A stretch of 64,000 nt of DNA from Cellulomonas marina (lineage in GTDB: Bacteria; Actinomycetota; Actinomycetes; Actinomycetales; Cellulomonadaceae), in assembly GCF_900111925.1 (NCBI RefSeq), contig NZ_FOKA01000008.1:62001-126000 (forward strand), written 5' to 3'. Position 1 is the first letter of the stretch; every line of letters starts with the position of its first letter. The notes beneath the pieces are model-generated. The model did no database searches. It had not been told where the DNA came from and worked only from the letters and a program-made list of their open reading frames with translations. The translations under genes were made by a program, and so were the position numbers. Below are positions 31,383-44,896 of this stretch, in pieces.

Positions 31383-32063
31383 GTGCCACCGACCAGCGCC
31401 GCCCCCCGTCCCGAGCGCCCCGGACCCGTCTCGGTGATGATCGTCGACGACCACGAGGTCGTCCGCCGCGGCATCGCCGAGGTGGTGGACCGCTCCGAGG
31501 GCCTCACCGTCGTCGCCGAGGCCGCCTCCGTCGCCGACGGGGTGCGGCGGGCGCTCCTCGTCCGGCCGCAGGTGCTCCTGCTGGACCTGCAGCTGCCCGA
31601 CGGCACGGGCATCGACCTGCTCACGGCGGTCCGCGAGCAGCACCCGGACGTCCGTGCGGTGGTGCTCACCTCCTTCGACGACGACGACGCCGTCGCCGCC
31701 GCGCTCGCCGCCGGGGCCGCGGCCTACGTCCTCAAGAGCGTGCGCGGGGCGGAGATCACCGACGTCGTCAAGGCCGTCGCGGCGGGGCGCACCCTGCTCG
31801 ACGAGCGGACCGTCGCGCGCCGCCGCGCCGGCCACGAGGACCCGACGGAGAACCTCACGCCGAGCGAGCTGCGCGTGCTCGACCTCATCGGCGAGGGCCT
31901 GTCCAACCGGGAGATCGCCGAGCGCCTCGGCGTCGCCGAGAAGACGGTGAAGAACCACATCACGTCGCTGCTGGCGAAGATGGGCCTGCAGCGGCGCACG
32001 CAGGTCGCCGCGTGGGTCGCCTCCCGCAAGCACTCCGGCTGGCGCGCCGAGCCCGGGCACTGA
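31383..32063 (+). CDS. LuxR-type response regulator, DosR/DevR-like
   Basis: The 226-residue NarL/FixJ-family regulator has a receiver domain VMIVDDHEVVRRGIAEVV with phospho-acceptor D68 (LLLDLQLPDGTG), Thr and Lys switch residues in VVLTSFDD and AYVLKSVRG, and a LuxR helix-turn-helix LTPSELRVLDLIGEGLSNREIAERLGVAEKTVKNHITSLLAKMGL. It is convergent, 74 nt away, with a DosS-like kinase, its likely partner. The receiver-HTH linker and the KTVKNHITSLLAKMG recognition segment resemble mycobacterial DosR. TACGAT (31371-31376) is 6 nt from GTG 31383. A DosR-box core lies upstream of cydA, its probable target. Confidence 0.82.
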   Translation: MPPTSAAPRPERPGPVSVMIVDDHEVVRRGIAEVVDRSEGLTVVAEAASVADGVRRALLVRPQVLLLDLQLPDGTGIDLLTAVREQHPDVRAVVLTSFDDDDAVAAALAAGAAAYVLKSVRGAEITDVVKAVAAGRTLLDERTVARRRAGHEDPTENLTPSELRVLDLIGEGLSNREIAERLGVAEKTVKNHITSLLAKMGLQRRTQVAAWVASRKHSGWRAEPGH

Positions 32064-32137: not shown

Positions 32138-33891
<1,754 letters not shown>

Positions 33892-33895
<4 letters not shown>

Positions 33896-35796
33896 CCTGC
33901 GTCCCCCTCGCCCTCGCGCCTGCGCGCCTCACGGTAGTCCGCCCGGCGGGCCAGGAGCTCCGCGTGCGTCCCCCGGTCGACGACACCGCCGTCGCCCAGG
34001 AGCACGACCTCGTCCGCCGCGGCCAGCGGGGTCAGGCGGTGCGTCACGACGAGCACGCCCCGGCCGCCGTTCGGACCGTCCCCCGCACCGTCCGCCGCAC
34101 CGTCCGCCGCACCGTCCGCCGCACCGTCCGCCGCACCGTTCGCCGCACCACGGAGAAGGTCGGTGACGAGTGCGTCGGCGAGCGCCGGGTCGAGGTGCTC
34201 GGCGGGCTCGTCGACGAGGAGCAGGGGCGCGTGGGTGAGCAGGGCACGCGCGAGGAGCAGCCGCCGGCGCTCCCCGCCCGAGACCGTGCGGGCGTCCGGG
34301 CCGAGCCGGGTGGCCAGCCCGTCGGGGAGGGCGGCGAGCCACGGGCCGAGGCCGACGCGGCGCAGGGCGGCGGCGGCCTCCGCCTCGGTGACGTCGCCGC
34401 GCGCGACGCGGAGGTTCTCCAGCACCGTCGTGCCGAAGACGTGGGCGTCCTCGAGCGTCGCGACGACGTGGTGGGGGAGGTCGGCGGCGGGCCACGCGCC
34501 GACGGGGCGGCCGTCGAGGGCGACGAGCCCGCCCGTCGGCGGCAGGAGGCCGGCGAGGGTGAGCAGCAGCGTCGTCTTGCCCGTGCCGGACGGGCCGACC
34601 ACCGCGACGGACCGTCCGGGGACGAGGTCGAGGTCGAGCCCGGCGACGACCGGTGGACGGCCCGGCCAGCCGCACGCGAGGCCTCGGGCGTGCAGGCCGG
34701 CACCGGCGGGCACGGGGGCAGCACCAGGGGCGGGGGCGGCGCCCGACGTGGCAGCGGGTGCCGGGGTGGGGTGGGGCGTCGTCGCGTCGAGCAGCGCCAG
34801 CACGCGCGCGGCCGCGGCCCGTGAGCGGTGCAGCTGCGTGGCCGCGGCGGGCAGGAGCGCGGTGGCCTCGAAGGCCGCGAGCGGCGTGAGCACGACGACC
34901 GCGAGGTCGGTGGCGGCCAGGTCACCGCGGCGCACGGCCGGGATGCCCGTGACGAGCGCGGCGAGCACGGCCAGGCCCTGCGCCAGGGGGCCGAGCGCGG
35001 CGGCGAGGGCGGAGGACGGCGCCCCGGCGTCGACGGCGGCGGCCACGTCGGCGTCGGCGTCCCGCAGCGCCCGCAGCCGCTCGTCGGCCAGGCCGGCCAC
35101 GGCCAGGGGACCGGCGTCGTCCACGAGCGCGAGCGCGGCGGCGCTCCGACGGGCGCGGCCCGCGGCGGCCCGTCGTTCCGTCAGCCGCGCCGTGCGCGCG
35201 GTGACCGCGGGTGCCACGACCCCGGCGAGCAGCAGCGCGAGGGCCAGCGCGGCCCCGGCGGGCGGCCAGAGGACCGTCATGGCGGCCACGGTCCCGACGC
35301 CGAGCAGGGCCGCGACCGCGGCGGGCAGCAGCCCGCGCACGACCACGTCGCCGACCGCGTCGACGTCCTCACCCACGCGCGCCAGGAGATCCCCCCGGCG
35401 CAGCGGGACCAGCGCGGCGGGCGACCCGGCCGCCAGCCGCTCGTACAGCGTGGTCCGCAGCTGCGTCATGCCGCGCAGCGCCACGTCGTGCGACACGAGC
35501 CGCTCGACGTAGCGGAGCACTCCGCGACCGACGCCGAAGGCCCGCACGCCGACCGTCGCGACGGACAGGACGAGCACGGGCGGCATCTGCGACGCGCGGG
35601 CGATGAGCCAGGCGGCCACGGCGGCGAGCGCGACGGCGCAGCCGAGCGCGAGCGTGCCGAGGACGACGGCGAGGAGCACGCGCCGCCGGTCGACGTCCAG
35701 CAGGGCGACGGCGCGCCGCAGCGTGCCGCGCGGGGGATCGGCGTCGACCGTCGCGCGGGCGTCGCCCGATACCGCGGAGGTGGTCGCGGCGCTCAC
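33892..35796 (-). CDS. cydC: thiol reductant ABC exporter subunit CydC
   Basis: The 634-residue half-transporter partners CydD to export cysteine/glutathione, needed for cytochrome bd assembly. The six-helix membrane domain begins RRRVLLAVVLGTLALGCAVALAAVAAWLIARASQMPPVLVLSVATVGVRAFGV. The NBD has Walker A GPSGTGKTT, Q-loop ATLEDAHVF (E where Q is usual), signature VSGGERRRL, Walker B LLLVDEPAEHLD and H-switch VVTHRL. Between D-loop and H-switch sits an in-frame Gly-Ala-Ala-Asp repeat of about 28 residues. GTG 35796 overlaps the cydD stop; its own stop overlaps the kinase start. Confidence 0.9.
34086..34145. repeat. 12-bp tandem repeat inside cydC
   Basis: Five head-to-tail copies of CACCGTCCGCCG (the last with one change) encode a Gly-Ala-Ala-Asp run on the minus strand, and weaker copies flank it. 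The length keeps the frame for any copy number. Confidence 0.85.
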
Positions 35797-37553
35797 CGGA
35801 CGACCTCCGGGACCGGTGCGTCGGACCGACCCGCGGCCACGGTCGCGGCACGCGGGGTCCCGGCGGGTGCGGGTGCGGCCGGCCGGTCCGCCTCCATCTC
35901 CGTCGCCGCAGCGGCGCGCACGACGACCACGTCGTCGGCGACCGCGGCGAGGCTTGCGCGGTGGGCGACGAGCACGACGGCGCGGCCGGACGCCCGCAGC
36001 GTCTCGACCGTCCGGAGCACGACCTCCTCCCCGTGCGCGTCGAGGTGCGCCGTCGGCTCGTCGAGCACGACGAGAGGCGCGGGGGACACGAGCGCCCGGG
36101 TGAGCGCCACGCGCTGGCGCTGGCCCACGCTGAGGCCCGTGCCGCCGGCGCCGACCCGGTGCCCCCACCCGTCCGGCAGGGCGGCGACGACGGCGTCGAG
36201 GCCCGTGAGCGCGGCCGCACGCTCGCGCACGGGCGCGTCCCCGCCGACGAGTGCCGCCACGGTGCCGGGTTCGAGCACCGGCCGCTGCGGGAGCCAGGAG
36301 ACCTGCGACCACAGCGTGGCGGGGTCGACGTCGGCGAGGTCGAGCGCCGGTCCCGTGCCGTCGACCGCGACGAGCCGCGCCGCGCCGGCGTCCGGGCGCA
36401 GGAGCCCCAGCAGGACCTCGACGGCCGTCGTCTTGCCGGACCCGCTCGTCCCGACGAGGGCCACCACGCGGCCCGGCCGGACCTCGAGGTCCAGGCCCTC
36501 CGGCGCGAGCGCCCCCGTGGGCTGGCGCACGGCGACGCCGTGCAGCCGCAGCGCGGTGCGGGCGAGGTCGGGTGCGGGGTGCGTGCCCCGCGGCGGCAGG
36601 GGGGTCTCGAGCACCGCGAAAGCGGCCTCGGCGGCCGCCACACCGTCGGTCGACGCGTGGAACTGCGCCCCGACCTGCCGCAGCGGCGCGTAGACCTCGG
36701 GCGCGAGGACCAGCACCGCCAGCCCGGTGACCAGGGGCAGGTGGCCGCCGACGAGCCGCAGCCCGATGCCGACCGCGACGAGCGCGACGGACAGCGTCGT
36801 CAGCAGCTCGAGCACCATGCCGGACAGGAAGGCGATCCGCAGGGTCCCCATGGTCGCGCGGCGGTGCGCGTCGCCGAGCTCGCGGACGCGTGCGGCCGGG
36901 CCGCGCTCGCGGCCCAGCGCGCGCAGCGTGGGCAGCCCCGCGAGCAGGTCCAGCGTCTGCGCGGCGAGGGTCTGCATGCCCCGCAGCCCCCTCGCCGAGC
37001 GCCCCTCGGTCAGCCGCCCGACGAGCACCATGAACACCGGCACGAGCGGCAGCGTCCCGACGACGACCGCCGCCGACACCCGGTCCAGCCCGAGCACCAC
37101 CAGCAGGGCCGCCGGCGTCACCGTCGCCGCGAGCACGAGCTGGGGCAGGTAGCGGACGAAGTAGGGCTCGAGCGCGTCGAGCCCGCGCGTGGCGAGCGTG
37201 ACCAGCTCCGGCCCCCGTCCGGCGGCGAGCCAGCGCGGGCCGAGGGCCACCGCCCGCTCGACGACCCCGGCCCGGAGCTCGGCCACCGCGCGGGTGGCGG
37301 CGCGGTGCGCGAACCGCTCCTGCACCCCGACGACGAGCACCCGCGCCAGCACGACGGCCGCGAGGGCGACGACCTCGTCGCCGACGGCCGCGAGGTCGAG
37401 GCCGTCCTGCACGGCGCCGCCGAGCGCCCGGGCCAGCAGCAGGGCCTGGGCGACCACGAGGCCCGCGGTCAGCACCCCGGTGGCCACCGTGAGCGCGAGG
37501 TAGGCGCGCGCGGCCCGTGCGTGCCGCAGCAGGCGCGGGTCGAGCGGCTTCAC
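35793..37553 (-). CDS. cydD: thiol reductant ABC exporter subunit CydD
   Basis: The 586-residue half-transporter begins VKPLDPRLLRHARAARAYLALTVATGVLTAGLVVAQALLLARAL, typical of CydD. The NBD has Walker A GTSGSGKTT near 370, Q-loop SWLPQRPVL, signature LSVGQRQRVAL, Walker B LVVLDEPTAHLD and H-switch VAHR. It lies 74 nt after cydB (minus strand), in an interval of repeated GCCGACCTG-like units. Separate cydD and cydC genes, not a fused cydDC, are seen here. Confidence 0.9.
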   Translation of the reverse strand: MKPLDPRLLRHARAARAYLALTVATGVLTAGLVVAQALLLARALGGAVQDGLDLAAVGDEVVALAAVVLARVLVVGVQERFAHRAATRAVAELRAGVVERAVALGPRWLAAGRGPELVTLATRGLDALEPYFVRYLPQLVLAATVTPAALLVVLGLDRVSAAVVVGTLPLVPVFMVLVGRLTEGRSARGLRGMQTLAAQTLDLLAGLPTLRALGRERGPAARVRELGDAHRRATMGTLRIAFLSGMVLELLTTLSVALVAVGIGLRLVGGHLPLVTGLAVLVLAPEVYAPLRQVGAQFHASTDGVAAAEAAFAVLETPLPPRGTHPAPDLARTALRLHGVAVRQPTGALAPEGLDLEVRPGRVVALVGTSGSGKTTAVEVLLGLLRPDAGAARLVAVDGTGPALDLADVDPATLWSQVSWLPQRPVLEPGTVAALVGGDAPVRERAAALTGLDAVVAALPDGWGHRVGAGGTGLSVGQRQRVALTRALVSPAPLVVLDEPTAHLDAHGEEVVLRTVETLRASGRAVVLVAHRASLAAVADDVVVVRAAAATEMEADRPAAPAPAGTPRAATVAAGRSDAPVPEVVR

Positions 37554-37626: not shown

Positions 37627-38736
37627 TCACGGCGCGTCGGCGTCCCGACGCGCGTTGGCGAAGGTGACGGTGGTGGGGGTGGGGATGTGCTCGACGGAGA
37701 CGCGCTTGCGGAACACCCAGTACGTCCAGGCCTGGTAGACGAGCACGACGGGCGTGAGCAGGACCGCGACCCACGTCATGACGCCGAGCGTGTAGGCGCT
37801 CGACGAGGCGTTGTGGATCGTCAGGGAGTACGCCGGGTCGACGGACGAGGGCATGACGTCGGGGAACAGCGAGCCGAAGATGAGCACGACCGCCGCGACG
37901 ATCCCCACCGCCGAGGCCACGAACGCGCGGCCCTCCTGGCGGGTGCGCGTGAAGAGGACCCCGGCCGCCAGCGCGGCCGCGGCCACCACGAGCGGTACCC
38001 AGGTCCAGGCCTTGCCCGAGTACTCGAGCTGCAGCCAGATCGCCCACACGGCCCCGACGCCGAGCGTGAGCACGGACAGCCGCCCGGACAGCTCGCCCGC
38101 GCGCCGACGGACCACCCCGTCGGACTTCAGCGCGAGGAAGACGGAGCCGTGGGTGAGGAAGATGCAGGCCGTCACGACCCCGGTCAGCAGCGCGAACCCG
38201 TGGCCGTTGGTCAGCAGGTCGAGGAACGAGCCCGTGTACTGCAGCGTGTTGCGGGTGGTCTCGCCCTCGACGTTGCTCGTCGAGGTCACGACGGGTTCGA
38301 TCCGCATGCCCGCCACGAGGTTGCCGAACGCGACGCCCCAGAGGACCGCCGGGACCCAGGAGCCGACGACCAGCGCCCACGTGTGCGTGGCCTGCCACCA
38401 GCCGGAGGCGATCTTGCCGCGCCACTCGAAGGCGACGACGCGCACGATGAGCGCGAGCAGGACCAGGACGAGCGCGAGGTAGGCCCCCGAGAACAGCGTG
38501 GCGTACCACTCGGGGAAGGCGGCGAAGGTCGCGCCGCCGGCGGTGAGCAGCCAGACCTCGTTGCCGTCCCAGACGGGGCCGATCGTGTTGATCATGACGC
38601 GACGCTCGCGCTCGTCGCGCCCGACGAACGGCAGGAGCATCCCCACGCCGAAGTCGAAGCCCTCGAGGACGAGGTAGCCGGTCCACAGGACCGCGATGAG
38701 GACGAACCAGGTGATCTGCAGCGCCTCGTGGCTCAT
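37627..38736 (-). CDS. cydB: cytochrome bd ubiquinol/menaquinol oxidase subunit II
   Basis: The 369-residue membrane subunit has the family N-terminus ITWFVLIAVLWTGYLVLEGFDFGVGMLLPFVGRDERERRVMINTIGPVWDGNEVWLLTAGGATFAAFPEWYATLFSG, with WDGNEVW strictly conserved, and about eight or nine helices. It folds with CydA, stabilises the haems and may carry protons. It follows cydA after 37 nt. Confidence 0.95.
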   Translation of the reverse strand: MSHEALQITWFVLIAVLWTGYLVLEGFDFGVGMLLPFVGRDERERRVMINTIGPVWDGNEVWLLTAGGATFAAFPEWYATLFSGAYLALVLVLLALIVRVVAFEWRGKIASGWWQATHTWALVVGSWVPAVLWGVAFGNLVAGMRIEPVVTSTSNVEGETTRNTLQYTGSFLDLLTNGHGFALLTGVVTACIFLTHGSVFLALKSDGVVRRRAGELSGRLSVLTLGVGAVWAIWLQLEYSGKAWTWVPLVVAAAALAAGVLFTRTRQEGRAFVASAVGIVAAVVLIFGSLFPDVMPSSVDPAYSLTIHNASSSAYTLGVMTWVAVLLTPVVLVYQAWTYWVFRKRVSVEHIPTPTTVTFANARRDADAP

Positions 38737-38773: not shown

Positions 38774-40246
38774 TCAGTAGGCGAAGGACAGGGGTCGGTC
38801 GGCGTCGTCGTCGACGTCGGCGCGACGGGCGTCGGGGCTCGGGTCGACCGGGTCGGCCTCCACGCCCTCGACCGCGTAGCGGTGCATGAGCCGGTACCAG
38901 AACACGGCCAGCACGCCGTACAGCAGCGTGAACAGCACCATCGAGGTGAGGATCGCGCTCGCGGGCACCTGCGTGGACACGCCCCGCTCGACGAGGAGCC
39001 AGATGTCGTCGATGCCGGTCGGGTTGGGCGCCACCACCCAGGGCTGGCGGCCCATCTCGGTGAAGATCCAGCCGAACGACGAGGCGAGGAAGATCGTCGG
39101 CAGGGCGGCGATCGCGCTCCAGCGGAACCAGCGGGCGGTGGGCACCCGCCCGCCGCGCGTCAGCCACAGCGCCGCGACGGCGAGCAGGCCGGCGAAGGCG
39201 GCCATGCCGATCATGAGCCGGAAGGACCAGTAGGTGACCGCGAGGTCGGGCCGGTAGTCGATGCCGGCGCCGTACCGGGCCTCGTACTCCGCCTGCAGCT
39301 CGTCGACACCCTGGAGCTCGGCGGAGAACGAGTTGTCGGCGAGGAACGACGTCATGCCGGGGATCTGCAGCAGGTGCGTGACGTCCTCGCAGTCGTTCGA
39401 CAGGTCGCCGACGGCCAGCAGGGAGAAGGGCACGCCGCTCTCCGTCGCGCACAGGCCCTCCGCCGACGCCATCTTCATGGGCTGCTGCTCGAACATGAGC
39501 TGGCCCTGCCAGTGCCCGGACGCGCCGACGACGACGGCCGCGCCGATCATGACGCCGACGCCGAGGCGTAGCCCGCTGCGGTAGACGCCGGTGGTCGCCA
39601 CGCCGTCGCCGCGCCGGTGCGAGCGCACCAGCCACAGGCTGCAGATGGCGGCGACGAACGTGGCGGCCGTGAGCAGGGACGCCGAGATCGTGTGGGGGAA
39701 CGCGGCGAGGACGGTCGGGTTGGTGAGGACCGCCAGGATGCTCGTCATCTGCGCGCGGCCCGTCTCGGGGTCGAGCTCGGCGCCGACGGGGTGCTGCATC
39801 CAGCTGTTCGCCGCGAGGATGAAGAACGCCGACAGGTTCGTCGCCAGCGCCACGGCCCAGATCGTCGCCAGGTGCACCCGCCTGGGCAGCCGGTCCCAGC
39901 CGAAGATCCACAGGCCGAGGAACGTCGACTCGACGAAGAAGGCCGCCAGCGCCTCCATGGCCAGCGGCGCGCCGAACACGTCCCCGACGAAGCGCGAGTA
40001 CTCCGACCAGTTCAGCCCGAACTGGAACTCCTGCACGATGCCGGTGGCGACCCCGATCGCGAAGTTGATGAGCAGGAGCTTGCCGAAGAACTTCGTCAGC
40101 TTCAGCCAGCGCACGTCCCCGGTCCGCACCCAGGCGGTCTGCATGACGGCGACGAGGGGCGACAGGCCGATGGTGAGCGGCACGAAGACGAAGTGGTAGA
40201 CGGTCGTGACACCGAACTGCCAGCGGGCCAGGGTGAGGGCGTCCAC
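38774..40246 (-). CDS. cydA: cytochrome bd ubiquinol/menaquinol oxidase subunit I
   Basis: The 490-residue haem-bearing subunit reduces O2 with electrons from menaquinol. The haem b595 ligand is H18 in TTVYHFVFVPLTIGLSPLVA; haem b558 ligands are H in FPHTISASLLTA and M in SFRLMIGMAAF; GRQPWVV of the quinol-binding region is present. The Q-loop is of the short type usual in actinobacteria. Start GTG 40246 (VDALTLARWQFG) has GGAGA upstream; the frame is open further but has no family sequence. It is the first gene of cydABDC plus the kinase gene, with a leader of about 160 nt. Confidence 0.95.
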   Translation of the reverse strand: MDALTLARWQFGVTTVYHFVFVPLTIGLSPLVAVMQTAWVRTGDVRWLKLTKFFGKLLLINFAIGVATGIVQEFQFGLNWSEYSRFVGDVFGAPLAMEALAAFFVESTFLGLWIFGWDRLPRRVHLATIWAVALATNLSAFFILAANSWMQHPVGAELDPETGRAQMTSILAVLTNPTVLAAFPHTISASLLTAATFVAAICSLWLVRSHRRGDGVATTGVYRSGLRLGVGVMIGAAVVVGASGHWQGQLMFEQQPMKMASAEGLCATESGVPFSLLAVGDLSNDCEDVTHLLQIPGMTSFLADNSFSAELQGVDELQAEYEARYGAGIDYRPDLAVTYWSFRLMIGMAAFAGLLAVAALWLTRGGRVPTARWFRWSAIAALPTIFLASSFGWIFTEMGRQPWVVAPNPTGIDDIWLLVERGVSTQVPASAILTSMVLFTLLYGVLAVFWYRLMHRYAVEGVEADPVDPSPDARRADVDDDADRPLSFAY

Positions 40247-40783
40247 GCGGGTCTCCGTGGGGTGCGAGGGCGGGCGTACGGGGTGTCGGGGTGCGCGTCC
40301 GGCGGGTGTGCACGGCGGGCACGGGGTGCGTGCGCGGCGTGCGTCCGTGCCGGGCGAGCGGGGTCTGCGTGCGGGTCCGCCGGCGTCGTCGCCGCCGGTC
40401 CCGACAGGTGCGAACGTAGGGCGCGACCCCTGCCCGGCCGGTGGGACCTTCGTCCCCGGTGCTGACGCCGTGTCGTGACGTGGAGCACGCGCCTCCGGGG
40501 CGTCGGAGGACGCCTGTGCGATACTGACGGCGGCGAAGGGCGCGCCCACACCGCGCCCGAGCCCTTGAGCTCGTCGGTGTCAACCGCCGCGCGCACCAGC
40601 CGCCGCTGGTCCGCCGCCCCCGCAGGTCCTCCGGGACAGCGCGAGGGGCGCCGGTCCGAGCAGGCGACGGTGCCGGCGGGGCGCCGCGGCCACGACCGTC
40701 GACTTTCCGTCGCCGCCCAGCGCGCGACGACCGACCGCCGGGTGCGCGGGTGTGGCCGCGACCCGGCCTCAGGAGCACCCCGC
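40247..40783. other. divergent cydA-rne intergenic region (537 bp), no gene seen
   Basis: This is the longest gene-free stretch in the window. It holds the cydA promoter and its roughly 160-nt leader on one side. On the other side are a weak GATACT -10 candidate at 40520-40525 and a leader of about 250 nt for rne, ending in AGGAG at 40771-40775. Long leaders are common for RNase E genes, which often autoregulate through them. Open frames here lack any family motif. Confidence 0.5.
40413..40456 (-). promoter_or_regulatory. cydA promoter with DosR-box-like inverted repeat
   Basis: On the minus strand TACGTT (40413-40418) is a TANNNT -10, so transcription would start near 40406. GGGAC-N4-GTCCC at 40443-40456 is centred about 43 bp upstream of that point, the usual location for a NarL-family activator overlapping the -35. 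The core equals that of the mycobacterial DosR box (TTSGGGACTWWAGTCCCSAA); the AT-rich outer bases are replaced by G/C. No good -35 is seen, as expected for an activated promoter. Confidence 0.6.
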
Positions 40784-43700
40784 GTGAGCCCCACCAGCAC
40801 CCCCGACGACGCCACGACGACCGCGGGCGGGGGTGGCGCCGAGGACGCGTCGCCGACGACCGCGCCCGCCGCGCCGCGTCGCCGCCGCGCGACCCGGACC
40901 GCCGCCTCCCCGACGGCGACGACGGCCGGCACCGACGACGGCACCACCACCGCCGACGGCAGCACTCCCGACACCGCTCGTGCGGGCGCGTCGGACGGCA
41001 CGGACGGCGCCGTCGCCACGGCGTCCGGCGACGCGACGCTCGACGTCGCCGCCGAGCCGGCCCCGAAGGTGGCGCGAGCGCGCCGCAGCCGTCGTGCGAC
41101 GAGCGCCACGGCTGCCCCCGCGGCCGCCGCGCCCGGCACCGAGGTCCCGGCCGGGACGGACCCCGCGGCCGCAACCGGAGCCACCTCATCGATCGACGAA
41201 GTGGCTCCGCCGACCCAGGAGGCGACGCTCGAGATGGCCGTCGACACGCCGGTCGACGCGCCCGTCGCCGCGCCCGTCGCCGAGTCCGTCGACCCGACCG
41301 TCGCCGTCGAGGCGCCCGCCGCGCCGACGCGGCGCCGGCGCGCCGCGACGCGTCCGGCGGCGGCGCCCGACGCGGTGCTGCCCCCGGTGGCCGAGCCCGT
41401 CGTCGAGCCGGTCGCGGAGCCCGTCGCGGAGCCCGTCGCGGAGCCCGTCACGGCGGACGCCGAGGTCGTCGTCCCGGCTCCTGACGACGCGGCGGTCGTC
41501 GAGGAAGTCGTCGAGGAGGTCGCGGAGACCTCCGCGGTCGCGCCCGTCGCCGATGCCGCCCCCGAGGGCGTGGGCCCGACCGGCACCCTGGACGTCCTCG
41601 CCGAGCTGGCGGCGCGCGGCACGACGGCCGAGGACGCGCCGGCCCCGCGGACCCGCGCGCGCCGGGCGACCCGCGGCGCCTCCCGGGCGGCCGGCGCGGC
41701 AGCGCCCGTGGCCACCCCCGGGACGACCCCTGAGACCACCCCTCAGACCACCGCTGCGACCAGCCCTGCGACCAGCGCGGCCCCCGCCACGGGCACGGCC
41801 GAGCCGGCCCCCGCCGACCCGCCCGTCGGCGCCCGGGCCCGCACGTCCGACGAGACCCCCCGCGCGGACGCCGGCACGGACCCGGGTGCCGCCACCTCCG
41901 GCCGGACGACGGGGGCCCGCCGGGGCTCCGGGTCGGGCGGGTCGGCCGACGCGCCGGCCGCCGCGCCGCGACTGGCGACCACCGCGCTGCTCTTCCAGGC
42001 CCCTGACGCCGGGGCCCGTCCCCGTCGCCGTCGGGTGCTCGCGGAGGCCGGCTCGCCGGAGGCGATCTCCGGTGCCGCCCGCGCCGCGGAGGCAGCCTCC
42101 GCGGCCGCCGCCACGACCGGACCGGAGGAGGCGGCGCCGCAGGCCGACCGCACCGCGGCCGAGGAGACCACCGGCCGTCGCGGCGGCCGCCGTCGGGGCG
42201 GCCGGCGTGGCCGCGGCGGCGCGGACACCGCGACCGGTACGCCGGAGGACGCGACCAGCACGGCCGGGACCGACGAGGACGCGCCCCTCGCGAACGACGC
42301 CCTGCCCGTCGACGAGCACGCCGCCCTCACGGCCCCCGCCACGACCGGGCAGGCGCTCGACGGCGACGACCTGGACGCCGTCGACGAGGACACCGCCGAC
42401 GACGAGGGCGAGGGCACGGACGAGGGCACGGACGAGGGCACGGACGAGGGCACGGACGGGTCCGATGGCGGTCCGCGCCGCCGGCGCCGCCGCGGCGGGC
42501 GCGGACGTCGCAGCCGCGGGGACGCCCCCGTCGCGGGCGACGACGTGCGCGCCGACGACGAGGACGCCGACGCCGGCCTCCCGTCGCCCGCCGACCCCGA
42601 CGCGTCGACGGGCGCCGGGTCCAGCGCCGAGCCCGACGACGAGGACGCCGACGACGAGGGCGGCGAGGACGTGGGCGACGACGAGGCCGGCGGCTCGAGC
42701 CGTCGGCGCCGCCGTCGTCGTCGCGGCGCGCGCGGCACCGGTGAGGAGCCCGAGGGCGGTCGCACCCGGACGCGCTCGGAGGAGCCGACCGCGCTGCGGG
42801 GCTCCACGCGCCTGGAGGCGAAGCGCCAGCGCCGGCGGGAGGGCCGCGACCAGGGCCGCCGCCGCCAGATCCTCACCGAGGCCGAGTTCCTCGCCCGCCG
42901 TGAGTCCGTGGACCGCACGATGCTCGTGCGCGAGCGCGACGGCCGCACCCAGATCGCGGTGCTCGAGGACGGCGTGCTCGTCGAGCACTACGTCTCGAAC
43001 CAGGCGCAGGCCTCCATGGTCGGCAACGTGTACCTCGGCCGCGTGCAGAACGTGCTGCCCAGCATGGAGGCGGCCTTCGTCGACGTGGGCAAGGGCCGCA
43101 ACGCCGTGCTCTACGCGGGCGAGGTCAACTGGGACGCCGCGGGCCTCGAGGGGCAGCCGCGCCGCATCGAGACGGCGCTCAAGAGCGGTGACCCCATGCT
43201 CGTCCAGGTCACGAAGGACCCCATCGGGCACAAGGGCGCGCGCCTGACGGCCCAGGTGACGCTGGCCGGGCGGTACCTCGTCTACGTGCCGGGCGGCGGC
43301 ATGACCGGCATCAGCCGCAAGCTGCCCGACGTCGAGCGCAACCGCCTGAAGAAGCTGCTGCGCGAGCTGGTGCCCGACTCCGCCGGCGTCATCGTGCGCA
43401 CGGCCGCGGAGGGGGCCAGCGAGGAGGAGCTGCGCGCCGACGTGGCCCGCCTGCAGGCGCAGTGGGAGGCCATCGAGAAGAAGCAGCGCACGGCCTCGGC
43501 GCCGGCCCTGCTGCAGGGCGAGCCGGACATGGCCATCCGCGTCGTGCGCGACATCTTCAACGACGACTTCTCCGCGCTCGTCGTGGAGGGGGACGCGGCG
43601 TGGTCGACGATCTCCGGGTACATCGGGGACCTCGCGCCGGACCTCGCGCAGAAGGTGCAGAGGTGGACCGGCACGGGTGACGTGTTCGCGCACCACCGCA

Positions 43701-44896
43701 TCGACGAGCAGCTCGCCAAGGGCATGGACCGGAAGGTCTGGCTGCCGTCGGGCGGGTCGCTGGTCATCGACCGCACCGAGGCCATGACGGTCGTCGACGT
43801 CAACACCGGTCGCTTCACCGGCGCCGGCGGGACGCTCGAGGAGACGGTCACGCGCAACAACCTCGAGGCGGCGGAGGAGATCGTCCGCCAGCTCCGGCTG
43901 CGCGACATCGGCGGGATCATCGTCGTCGACTTCATCGACATGGTGCTCGAGTCGAACCGCGACCTCGTGCTGCGGCGGCTGGTCGAGTGCCTCGGCCGGG
44001 ACCGCACGAAGCACCAGGTGGCCGAGGTGACGTCGCTCGGGCTCGTGCAGATGACCCGCAAGCGCGTGGGCCAGGGCCTCGTCGAGGCGTTCAGCGAGAC
44101 CTGCGAGCACTGCCACGGGCGCGGCTTCGTCGTGCACGCCGAGCCCGTCGAGCGCGGCGCCGGCGGCGGGCGGTCCGAGGGCGCGCCTGCGGCGGAGTCC
44201 GCGGAGGGGGAGGGGCGTCGTGGCGCCCGTCGTCGCCGCGGCAAGGACACGGGGCCGGACGCGGGCACGGCCGAGCGGTCGGTGCCCGTGCTGCCGGCGG
44301 CCCGCGAGGCGGTCAAGGCGACGCTCGCGACGATCGCCGCCGCGGCGGCGCACGCGCACGAGGCGCACCCGCACGAGGCGGCGCAGCCGTCCGGCGGCAG
44401 GACGGACGGCGGCGTGCCGGCCGGTGCGTCGCCGGTGCCGGCGCAGGTGCTGGAGGGCGAGGAGCTGGCCGACGTCGTGGCCGAGCTGGGTGACGCGGCG
44501 GGCGGTGCGGCCGACGCCGAGCAGGTCGTCGTCGTGGCGTCGGTGCCGGGCACGGCCGACGCGGCTGCCGACGAGGCTGCCGACGAGGCAGCCGCCGCAG
44601 GCGCCGCGGAGGGCGTCCAGGGCGCTGCCGAGGGCCGGCCGGCGGGCGGGTCCGCCGGTGGGCGCACCGGCACGCTCGACGTCCTGGCCGCCTTCGCCGG
44701 TCGCGTCCGCACGGGCACCCCGGGGGCGACGGCCGGCGACGAGCACGGCGGCCGGCCCGACGAGCAGCGGTGGGAGCTGGCGGCCGTCGACCCCGACGTC
44801 TTCGCCCTCGAGCTGCCGAGCCGGGACCAGCGCGCGGACGGGGCGACGGACGAGCCCGCCGACGACCCGAACGCCCGCTCGGCCGAGGGCCTCTGA
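40784..44896 (+). CDS. rne: ribonuclease E/G family endoribonuclease, unusually long
   Basis: The 1370-residue protein is the main RNA-decay and processing endonuclease. The catalytic core starts near residue 700: ESVDRTMLVRERDGRTQIAVLEDG, S1 region GNVYLGRVQNVLPSMEAAFVDVG, 5'-sensor and DNase I-like parts with the metal site MTVVDVNTGRFTG and VVDFIDM, and the zinc link CEHCHGRG. About 700 residues of Ala/Thr/Pro/Glu-rich sequence with Arg/Gly patches (RRGGRRGRGG) precede it, and an Ala/Glu-rich tail follows. E. coli RNase E has about 1060 residues. GTG 40784 has AGGAG 8 nt upstream; the frame is open for another 309 nt. Confidence 0.9.
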   Translation: MSPTSTPDDATTTAGGGGAEDASPTTAPAAPRRRRATRTAASPTATTAGTDDGTTTADGSTPDTARAGASDGTDGAVATASGDATLDVAAEPAPKVARARRSRRATSATAAPAAAAPGTEVPAGTDPAAATGATSSIDEVAPPTQEATLEMAVDTPVDAPVAAPVAESVDPTVAVEAPAAPTRRRRAATRPAAAPDAVLPPVAEPVVEPVAEPVAEPVAEPVTADAEVVVPAPDDAAVVEEVVEEVAETSAVAPVADAAPEGVGPTGTLDVLAELAARGTTAEDAPAPRTRARRATRGASRAAGAAAPVATPGTTPETTPQTTAATSPATSAAPATGTAEPAPADPPVGARARTSDETPRADAGTDPGAATSGRTTGARRGSGSGGSADAPAAAPRLATTALLFQAPDAGARPRRRRVLAEAGSPEAISGAARAAEAASAAAATTGPEEAAPQADRTAAEETTGRRGGRRRGGRRGRGGADTATGTPEDATSTAGTDEDAPLANDALPVDEHAALTAPATTGQALDGDDLDAVDEDTADDEGEGTDEGTDEGTDEGTDGSDGGPRRRRRRGGRGRRSRGDAPVAGDDVRADDEDADAGLPSPADPDASTGAGSSAEPDDEDADDEGGEDVGDDEAGGSSRRRRRRRRGARGTGEEPEGGRTRTRSEEPTALRGSTRLEAKRQRRREGRDQGRRRQILTEAEFLARRESVDRTMLVRERDGRTQIAVLEDGVLVEHYVSNQAQASMVGNVYLGRVQNVLPSMEAAFVDVGKGRNAVLYAGEVNWDAAGLEGQPRRIETALKSGDPMLVQVTKDPIGHKGARLTAQVTLAGRYLVYVPGGGMTGISRKLPDVERNRLKKLLRELVPDSAGVIVRTAAEGASEEELRADVARLQAQWEAIEKKQRTASAPALLQGEPDMAIRVVRDIFNDDFSALVVEGDAAWSTISGYIGDLAPDLAQKVQRWTGTGDVFAHHRIDEQLAKGMDRKVWLPSGGSLVIDRTEAMTVVDVNTGRFTGAGGTLEETVTRNNLEAAEEIVRQLRLRDIGGIIVVDFIDMVLESNRDLVLRRLVECLGRDRTKHQVAEVTSLGLVQMTRKRVGQGLVEAFSETCEHCHGRGFVVHAEPVERGAGGGRSEGAPAAESAEGEGRRGARRRRGKDTGPDAGTAERSVPVLPAAREAVKATLATIAAAAAHAHEAHPHEAAQPSGGRTDGGVPAGASPVPAQVLEGEELADVVAELGDAAGGAADAEQVVVVASVPGTADAAADEAADEAAAAGAAEGVQGAAEGRPAGGSAGGRTGTLDVLAAFAGRVRTGTPGATAGDEHGGRPDEQRWELAAVDPDVFALELPSRDQRADGATDEPADDPNARSAEGL
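41393..41452. repeat. 12-bp tandem repeat in rne encoding EPVA
   Basis: Five copies of GAGCCCGTCGCG, with scattered changes, encode Glu-Pro-Val-Ala at residues 204-223 of the N-terminal extension. Confidence 0.8.
42410..42457. repeat. 12-bp tandem repeat in rne encoding EGTD
   Basis: Four perfect copies of GAGGGCACGGAC encode Glu-Gly-Thr-Asp at residues 543-558, between Arg/Gly-rich patches. DNA-level identity of all copies implies recent expansion. Confidence 0.85.

Follow-up and report, generated by a model that had tools for sequence, protein, structure and literature searches.

Does the palindrome GGGAC-N4-GTCCC in front of cydA, in the window analysed here (the whole stretch of DNA, 64,000 nt), act as an operator of the cytochrome bd oxidase genes, and if so, which protein reads it? 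The original prediction called the palindrome the core of a DosR box and joined it with a DosR-like regulator gene nearby and a kinase in the cyd operon into a circuit of sensor, regulator, box and oxidase. Sequence comparison supports this circuit, with all of its parts present and the box and linked kinase conserved together, and we consider it likely that the cydABDC-kinase operon has this palindrome as its operator, read by the adjacent DosR-like regulator.

The palindrome and promoter in front of cydA

An exact pattern search found a single copy of GGGAC-N4-GTCCC in the window, at the very position that had been predicted. Dinucleotide shuffles gave 0.44 copies expected by chance per 64 kb, close to the earlier estimate of about 0.4, and about 0.002 per promoter region of 240 bp. 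The hexamer TACGTT on the minus strand (40418-40413) predicts a cydA start near 40406; the box centre lies 43-44 bp upstream of this start, consistent with the proposed placement at about -43, and about 200 bp from the GTG start codon of cydA at 40246. An evident -35 element is absent from the predicted promoter. The pentamer GTCAG on the far side of the box could possibly represent a second contact or a second dimer (Table 1).

The name DosR box proved apt for the core and less so for its surroundings. The core criterion of the DosR (DevR) box, GGGAC-N4-GTCCC, was matched exactly, and the WW centre of the DosR consensus TTSGGGACTWWAGTCCCSAA is present as TT (PMC2275270, excerpt). Counted by eye against the 20-bp consensus from the same excerpt, 13 of 20 positions match; the outer TT...AA, which had been noted as missing, and the inner T...A are both absent from the window box.

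Table 1. Coordinates of the genes, promoter elements and boxes; positions refer to the window unless a contig of the same genome is named.
Feature	Position	Strand	Remarks
DosR-type box core GGGAC-N4-GTCCC, predicted cyd operon operator	40443..40456	.	GGGACCTTCGTCCC; cydA strand GGGACGAAGGTCCC
-10 element TACGTT, cydA promoter	40413..40418	-	31 nt after box centre; 29-32 nt in relatives
GTCAG, conserved in genus, 13-17 nt upstream of box centre	40462..40466	-	each column kept in 54-63 of 64 sequences
cydA, cytochrome bd oxidase subunit I	38774..40246	-	Pfam PF01654, E 3e-157; GTG start
cydB, cytochrome bd oxidase subunit II	37627..38736	-	PF02322, E 1e-103
cydD, ABC exporter half	35793..37553	-	ABC_membrane and ABC_tran; named by gene order and tblastn of relatives
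cydC, ABC exporter half	33892..35796	-	ABC_tran; tblastn of relatives
DosS/DosT-like kinase, GAF-GAF-HisKA_3-HATPase, last gene of presumed cyd operon	32138..33895	-	domain search and GAF-A match
DosR/DevR-like response regulator, receiver and LuxR/GerE HTH	31383..32063	+	convergent with kinase gene
Ribonuclease E/G gene, divergent	40784..44896	+	PF10150; likely GTG start about 330 bp from box
ctaC (aa3 oxidase subunit II) box AGGACGTAGGTCCC	C19:82571-82584		just after predicted start; loci L193/L257
nrdD (anaerobic ribonucleotide reductase) box AGGACGAACGTCCT	C18:59811-59824		centre 29 nt before TAGGAAT; loci L255/L256
RGGACNWWNGTCCY-motif site L258	C19:112178-112191		TAGCGT 30 nt after centre; between sigma-70 gene and converging small gene

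Behind the promoter, cydA, cydB, cydD, cydC and the sensor kinase gene follow in this order, all on the minus strand. The start of cydC near 35796 is an estimate, as its open frame extends upstream to 36312. Both proteins of the predicted pair were found where they had been placed, the DosS-like kinase as the last gene of the presumed operon and the regulator gene 8.4 kb from the box. With two GAF domains, HisKA_3 and HATPase, the kinase has the domains of the DosS/DosT type. Its first GAF domain is closest to the heme GAF-A domains of DosT/DevS, and its His138 and Tyr160 align with DevS His149 and Tyr171, at the same 22-residue spacing. In DevS these residues are the proximal and the distal one of the heme, respectively (PMC4082495, excerpt); His138 is thus a putative heme ligand and Tyr160 a putative distal residue. 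The regulator combines a receiver with a LuxR/GerE HTH, as expected of the DosR type, and its best solved relative is DevR/DosR (3c3w, E 4e-52). Its recognition stretch AEKTVKN is identical to DosR 177-183, and all three residues that contact bases in DosR, Lys179, Lys182 and Asn183 (PMC4082495 and PMC5861037, excerpts), are kept.

Six copies of a 12-bp tandem repeat occupy 34075-34149, within the 3' part of cydC. The element CTGTGCGATACTGA at 40514-40527, which reads AGTATCGCACAG along the cydA strand, is seen again in the aligned promoters of the genus and may be the promoter from which the divergent ribonuclease E/G gene is transcribed. Elsewhere in the genome are two further cydA-like genes of 43-45% identity (G000:C27:12690-14102 and G000:C22:208727-210007), the second of which spans an in-frame TAA; the core within one mismatch was absent from the 600 bp upstream of both.

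The original prediction had named a similar density of cores throughout the genome as evidence against the box, and this caution applies to the bare core, of which the 3.96-Mb genome contains 39 copies (about 27 expected at the shuffle rate of the window; reversed-pattern control, 8). The refined motif RGGACNWWNGTCCY has six sites in the same genome (reversed control, one), three of them in front of cydA, nrdD and ctaC. The density of the bare core was therefore dropped as evidence and, with so many copies of this core in the genome, the argument has to come from comparison. A count so little above the shuffle expectation is what a chance palindrome of GC-rich DNA would lead one to expect, but the conservation of the box, its spacing to the -10 element and its association with particular taxa, presented below, speak against such an origin. 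On the strength of conservation and spacing we rejected chance, which appears hardly credible.

Conservation of the box and of the kinase-regulator pair within the genus

Of 81 genus genomes, 79 gave a CydA match and 77 a usable promoter of the orthologous gene. Within 300 bp, 39 of these promoters have the exact core and 27 a core with a single mismatch, which makes 66 of 77 with no more than one; ten others have two mismatches and one has three. A dyad scan of all 5-mers with spacers of 0-12, ranking raw spread without correction for base composition, placed GGGAC-N4 first (39/77), followed by its own inner register (26) and the next dyad (13). All 64 genus sites compared have A or T at both central positions of the box.

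The spacing to the promoter is equally constant. Among the 66 promoters with a core, 64 have TANNNT 29-31 nt after the box centre (29 nt in 51, 30 nt in 9, 31 nt in 4), and the remaining two (G045 and G063) each have a pair of boxes spaced by 23 bp, with TANNNT 29 nt after the second. At random positions, TANNNT occurs 28-32 nt to either side at a rate of 0.0015 (29 genus loci). The distance of the box from this conserved -10 resembles that of an activator site. The same observation bears on the idea that the box acts on the promoter of the divergent ribonuclease E/G gene, or in both directions, rather than on cydA. The box does lie within the intergenic region common to both genes, but the fixed spacing is to the -10 on the cydA side, the ribonuclease start is some 330 bp away and, in the order-level sample described below, boxes lie mostly 65-145 bp upstream of cydA; we regard a role on the ribonuclease side as most improbable.

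Eleven of the 77 promoters have at least two mismatches. In three of these (G046, G067, G069) a site can still be recognised at the usual position, and in eight genomes the box is gone. Three of the eight (G038, G041, G080) gave no kinase match at E <= 1e-60 among the scored candidates and a best regulator only 48-50% identical; direct inspection of the 16 kb around cydA revealed neither kinase nor regulator in any of them. The other five (G025, G037, G040, G042, G074) have a diverged pair, with a kinase of 62-65% and a regulator of 70-78% identity. The box is thus present in none of the 3 promoters without the pair and in 66 of the 74 others (p 0.002). With the diverged class, which was set post hoc once the result was known, the split becomes 66 of 69 promoters with an intact pair against 0 of 8 with an absent or diverged one. 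G027 (kinase 62%, regulator 80% identical) and G052 (65% and 83%) keep the box; regulator identity alone separates the classes, at 70-78% in the five diverged genomes and 80% or more in the rest. These counts come from searches in which at most 16 kinase and 36 regulator candidates were scored per genome, and they treat as pair-bearing two fragmented assemblies, G034 and G071, both without a kinase match and the latter without a regulator match as well.

In six of the eight box-less genomes the flanking promoter sequence was kept, with the box and the TA of the -10 changed. Upstream in several of these six promoters (L053, L055, L057, L059, L063, L065) there is a GTGTGACGCACAC-like palindrome. 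In a tree of 26 CydA sequences, five of the eight box-less genomes were represented and fell into two clades, which argues that box loss reflects one or two events and not eight; the two clades may have a single origin.

Further sites, and cydA promoters beyond the genus

In the genome of the window, the ctaC box is centred some 10 nt downstream of the start that TAGGCT predicts, a position that would suit a repressor; it is from this position that repression of ctaC is proposed. From the 76 genomes with a match, 30 genus loci were inspected; all 30 carry the element, which in G080 differs by a single base in the second half-site. At nrdD, a distance of exactly 29 nt separates the box centre from a following TAGAACT, TAGAAAT or TAGGAAT in this genome and in three of four genus loci; the fourth locus (L198) has no such -10 at 29 nt. 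Behind site L258 no protein gene was recognised, and the motif there perhaps drives a small RNA. The two remaining sites (L003, L259) had no gene assignment and no -10 at the corresponding distance.

A strict form of the motif, GGGACCTWNGTCCC, was found in 75 of 81 genus genomes (reversed control 0 in most and at most 2). Ten members have both a second DosS-like kinase of 50-55% identity and fully listed motif matches; seven of them (G003, G007, G010, G024, G027, G028, G036) have the strict motif no more than about 100 bp in front of that kinase gene, and three (G015, G018, G032) do not. Among 29 strict-motif genus loci, six are at cydA and four at nrdD (L197, L198, L199, L213). TANNNT stands at 28-32 nt in 8 of the 29, namely the six cydA loci and two of the 23 others, and the notion that all boxes are activator sites was accordingly set aside as unsupported.

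For the order level, 80 promoters were picked by hand, 40 with and 40 without a linked kinase, from a collection in which, among the matches listed, CydA was found in 158 of 198 genomes; left out were about eight more linked genomes, five whose kinase gene lies on a different contig and three in which it is on the opposite strand. The exact core was present in 20 of 40 linked versus 5 of 40 unlinked promoters (Fisher p 0.0006), and the core within one mismatch in 30 versus 21 of 40 (Fisher p 0.06); Markov shuffles predicted at most 0.2 exact cores and about 2 within one mismatch. GGGAC-N4 again headed the dyad scan (5-mers, spacers 0-12; 25/80), and 37 of 51 boxes had TANNNT 29-32 nt from the centre. 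The core within one mismatch in 21 unlinked promoters suggests that linkage is not needed or that another regulator can use the core.

The association was also seen in a set of named loci, comprising those 72 of the best 80 loci that have at least 6 kb after the cydA start (36 linked, 36 unlinked). Here the core within one mismatch was found in 32 of 36 linked versus 10 of 36 unlinked loci (Fisher 2e-7, kinship ignored), and the exact core in 21 versus 2. Among these 72, linked loci with the core belong to Cellulomonas, Demequina, Occultella, Actinotalea, Flaviflexus, Lentzea, Saccharothrix, Amycolatopsis and others, and four linked loci lack it (two Demequinaceae and two Brachybacterium: L285, L295, L320, L328). 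Hoyosella and one of two Mycobacterium loci have the exact core without a linked kinase (L287, L300), and the core within one mismatch was not found in the Rhodococcus, Gordonia, Tsukamurella and Promicromonospora loci among the best 80. A DosR-like regulator accompanied 29 of the 36 linked loci, with EKTVKN in all 29, and was not found within the locus in the other seven.

These data also allow us to weigh a different reader, in which the box is a real operator whose main reader is another NarL/LuxR-type regulator, for example a DosR-like paralogue, while the adjacent pair serves other genes. Besides the cores in unlinked order-level promoters and the seven linked loci in which the regulator was not found, this reading can draw on a second DosR-like regulator of 46-50% identity in some genus members and on the ctaC element, which persists in six genomes (G025, G040, G041, G042, G074, G080) whose neighbouring pair is lost or diverged. 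Against it, the genome of the window gave a single regulator match at E <= 1e-40 (36 of 79 candidates scored), the cydA box is absent from those clades in which the neighbouring pair decays, and the association of the box with a linked kinase is strong across the named taxa. A different main reader therefore seems unlikely to us, and the adjacent regulator remains the preferred candidate.

Relatives without a linked kinase point to another solution at the same promoter. Nine of the 36 unlinked named promoters contain a Rex-type palindrome within two mismatches, including those of Oerskovia, Cellulosimicrobium, Promicromonospora and Isoptericola (L269, L271, L272, L276, L277, L281, L290, L292, L293), as against none of the 36 linked ones (72 of the best 80 loci in total); three of the nine (L269, L271, L293) carry it together with a core within one mismatch. 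The regulator of the promoter has apparently been swapped in these relatives, from DosR-type to Rex-type, as far as the operators indicate. We considered and rejected control of the window promoter by Rex or CRP, as this promoter is not among the 9 of 75 genus promoters that have TGTGA-N6-TCACA with at most one mismatch. All nine of those promoters carry the DosR-type box too.

The predicted circuit and known oxygen-responsive systems

We propose the following sequence of events for the box in front of cydA. As oxygen falls, the heme GAF kinase would lose its O2 and phosphorylate the regulator, the phosphorylated dimer of which would bind GGGAC-N4-GTCCC at about -43, beside or over the -35 region. 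The bound regulator could then bring RNA polymerase to this promoter, which lacks an evident -35, and so lead to more bd oxidase, CydDC exporter and sensor kinase; with the kinase as the last gene of the operon, positive feedback would result. Binding, phosphorylation and the oxygen response of this predicted circuit are what we infer from sequence.

More broadly, these loci may represent a DosSR-type oxidase switch, with the sensor in the bd-oxidase operon and the regulator adjacent, in which the box activates cydABDC and nrdD and represses ctaC. Such a switch would be widespread in actinobacteria, unseen in the sampled Rhodococcus and Gordonia loci and replaced by Rex-type operators in several family relatives. 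We put this wider proposal forward tentatively, at somewhat less than an even chance. If it is true, the DosSR dormancy system would belong, as one branch, to a wider oxygen switch of respiration, and the exchange between DosR-type boxes and Rex-type sites at one promoter would offer a tractable case of regulatory rewiring.

The closest known system is DosS/DosT-DosR (DevS-DevR) of Mycobacterium, which shares with the present locus the GAF heme kinase with its proximal His and distal Tyr, the LuxR-type regulator with its three base contacts, and the GGGAC-N4-GTCCC core. The differences are that here the kinase ends the presumed cyd operon, the operon is a predicted direct target, and the outer TT/AA of the box are missing. 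According to an excerpt of PMC7739888, cydAB of M. smegmatis is not among the 49 genes of the DevR regulon, cydA induction is similar in a devR mutant (given there as 'data not shown'), and cydAB is under Crp control. PrrAB also affects cydA in that species (PMC6898941, excerpt), and the dos regulon requires DosR under CO (PMC8125079, excerpt). We read the present wiring as a new arrangement of a DosSR-type system. In the open-access literature searched, we found no report of a DosR-type box at cydA outside the mycobacteria, and little on bd-oxidase switching in actinobacteria beyond the usual model genera.

The gene of the kinase SCO3948 probably adjoins cyd genes. This kinase is described as the closest relative of OsdK (PMC5069765, excerpt). 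OsdK/OsdR of Streptomyces coelicolor is likewise a DosR-type pair outside the mycobacteria, with a 16-bp palindrome, AGGGCCGATCGGCCCT, of the same architecture; its half-site is GGGCC, versus GGGAC here, and 'cyd' does not appear in the main text of that paper (PMC5069765).

In common with the system described here, Rex would subject the cydA promoter to redox control, as an alternative to it; Rex-type operators were found in relatives that lack the linked kinase. Rex differs in its operator, TTGTGAA-N4-TTCACAA, and its signal is NADH (PMC7739888, excerpt).

With respect to logic, the nearest parallel is ArcA, and it is a likeness of function. In E. coli, this single response regulator activates the bd oxidase and represses a heme-copper oxidase. 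ArcA belongs to the OmpR family and is served by a quinone-sensing kinase, whereas the regulator here is of an unrelated class; the boxes at cydA and ctaC would nevertheless follow the same logic, with repression of ctaC judged from the position of its box.
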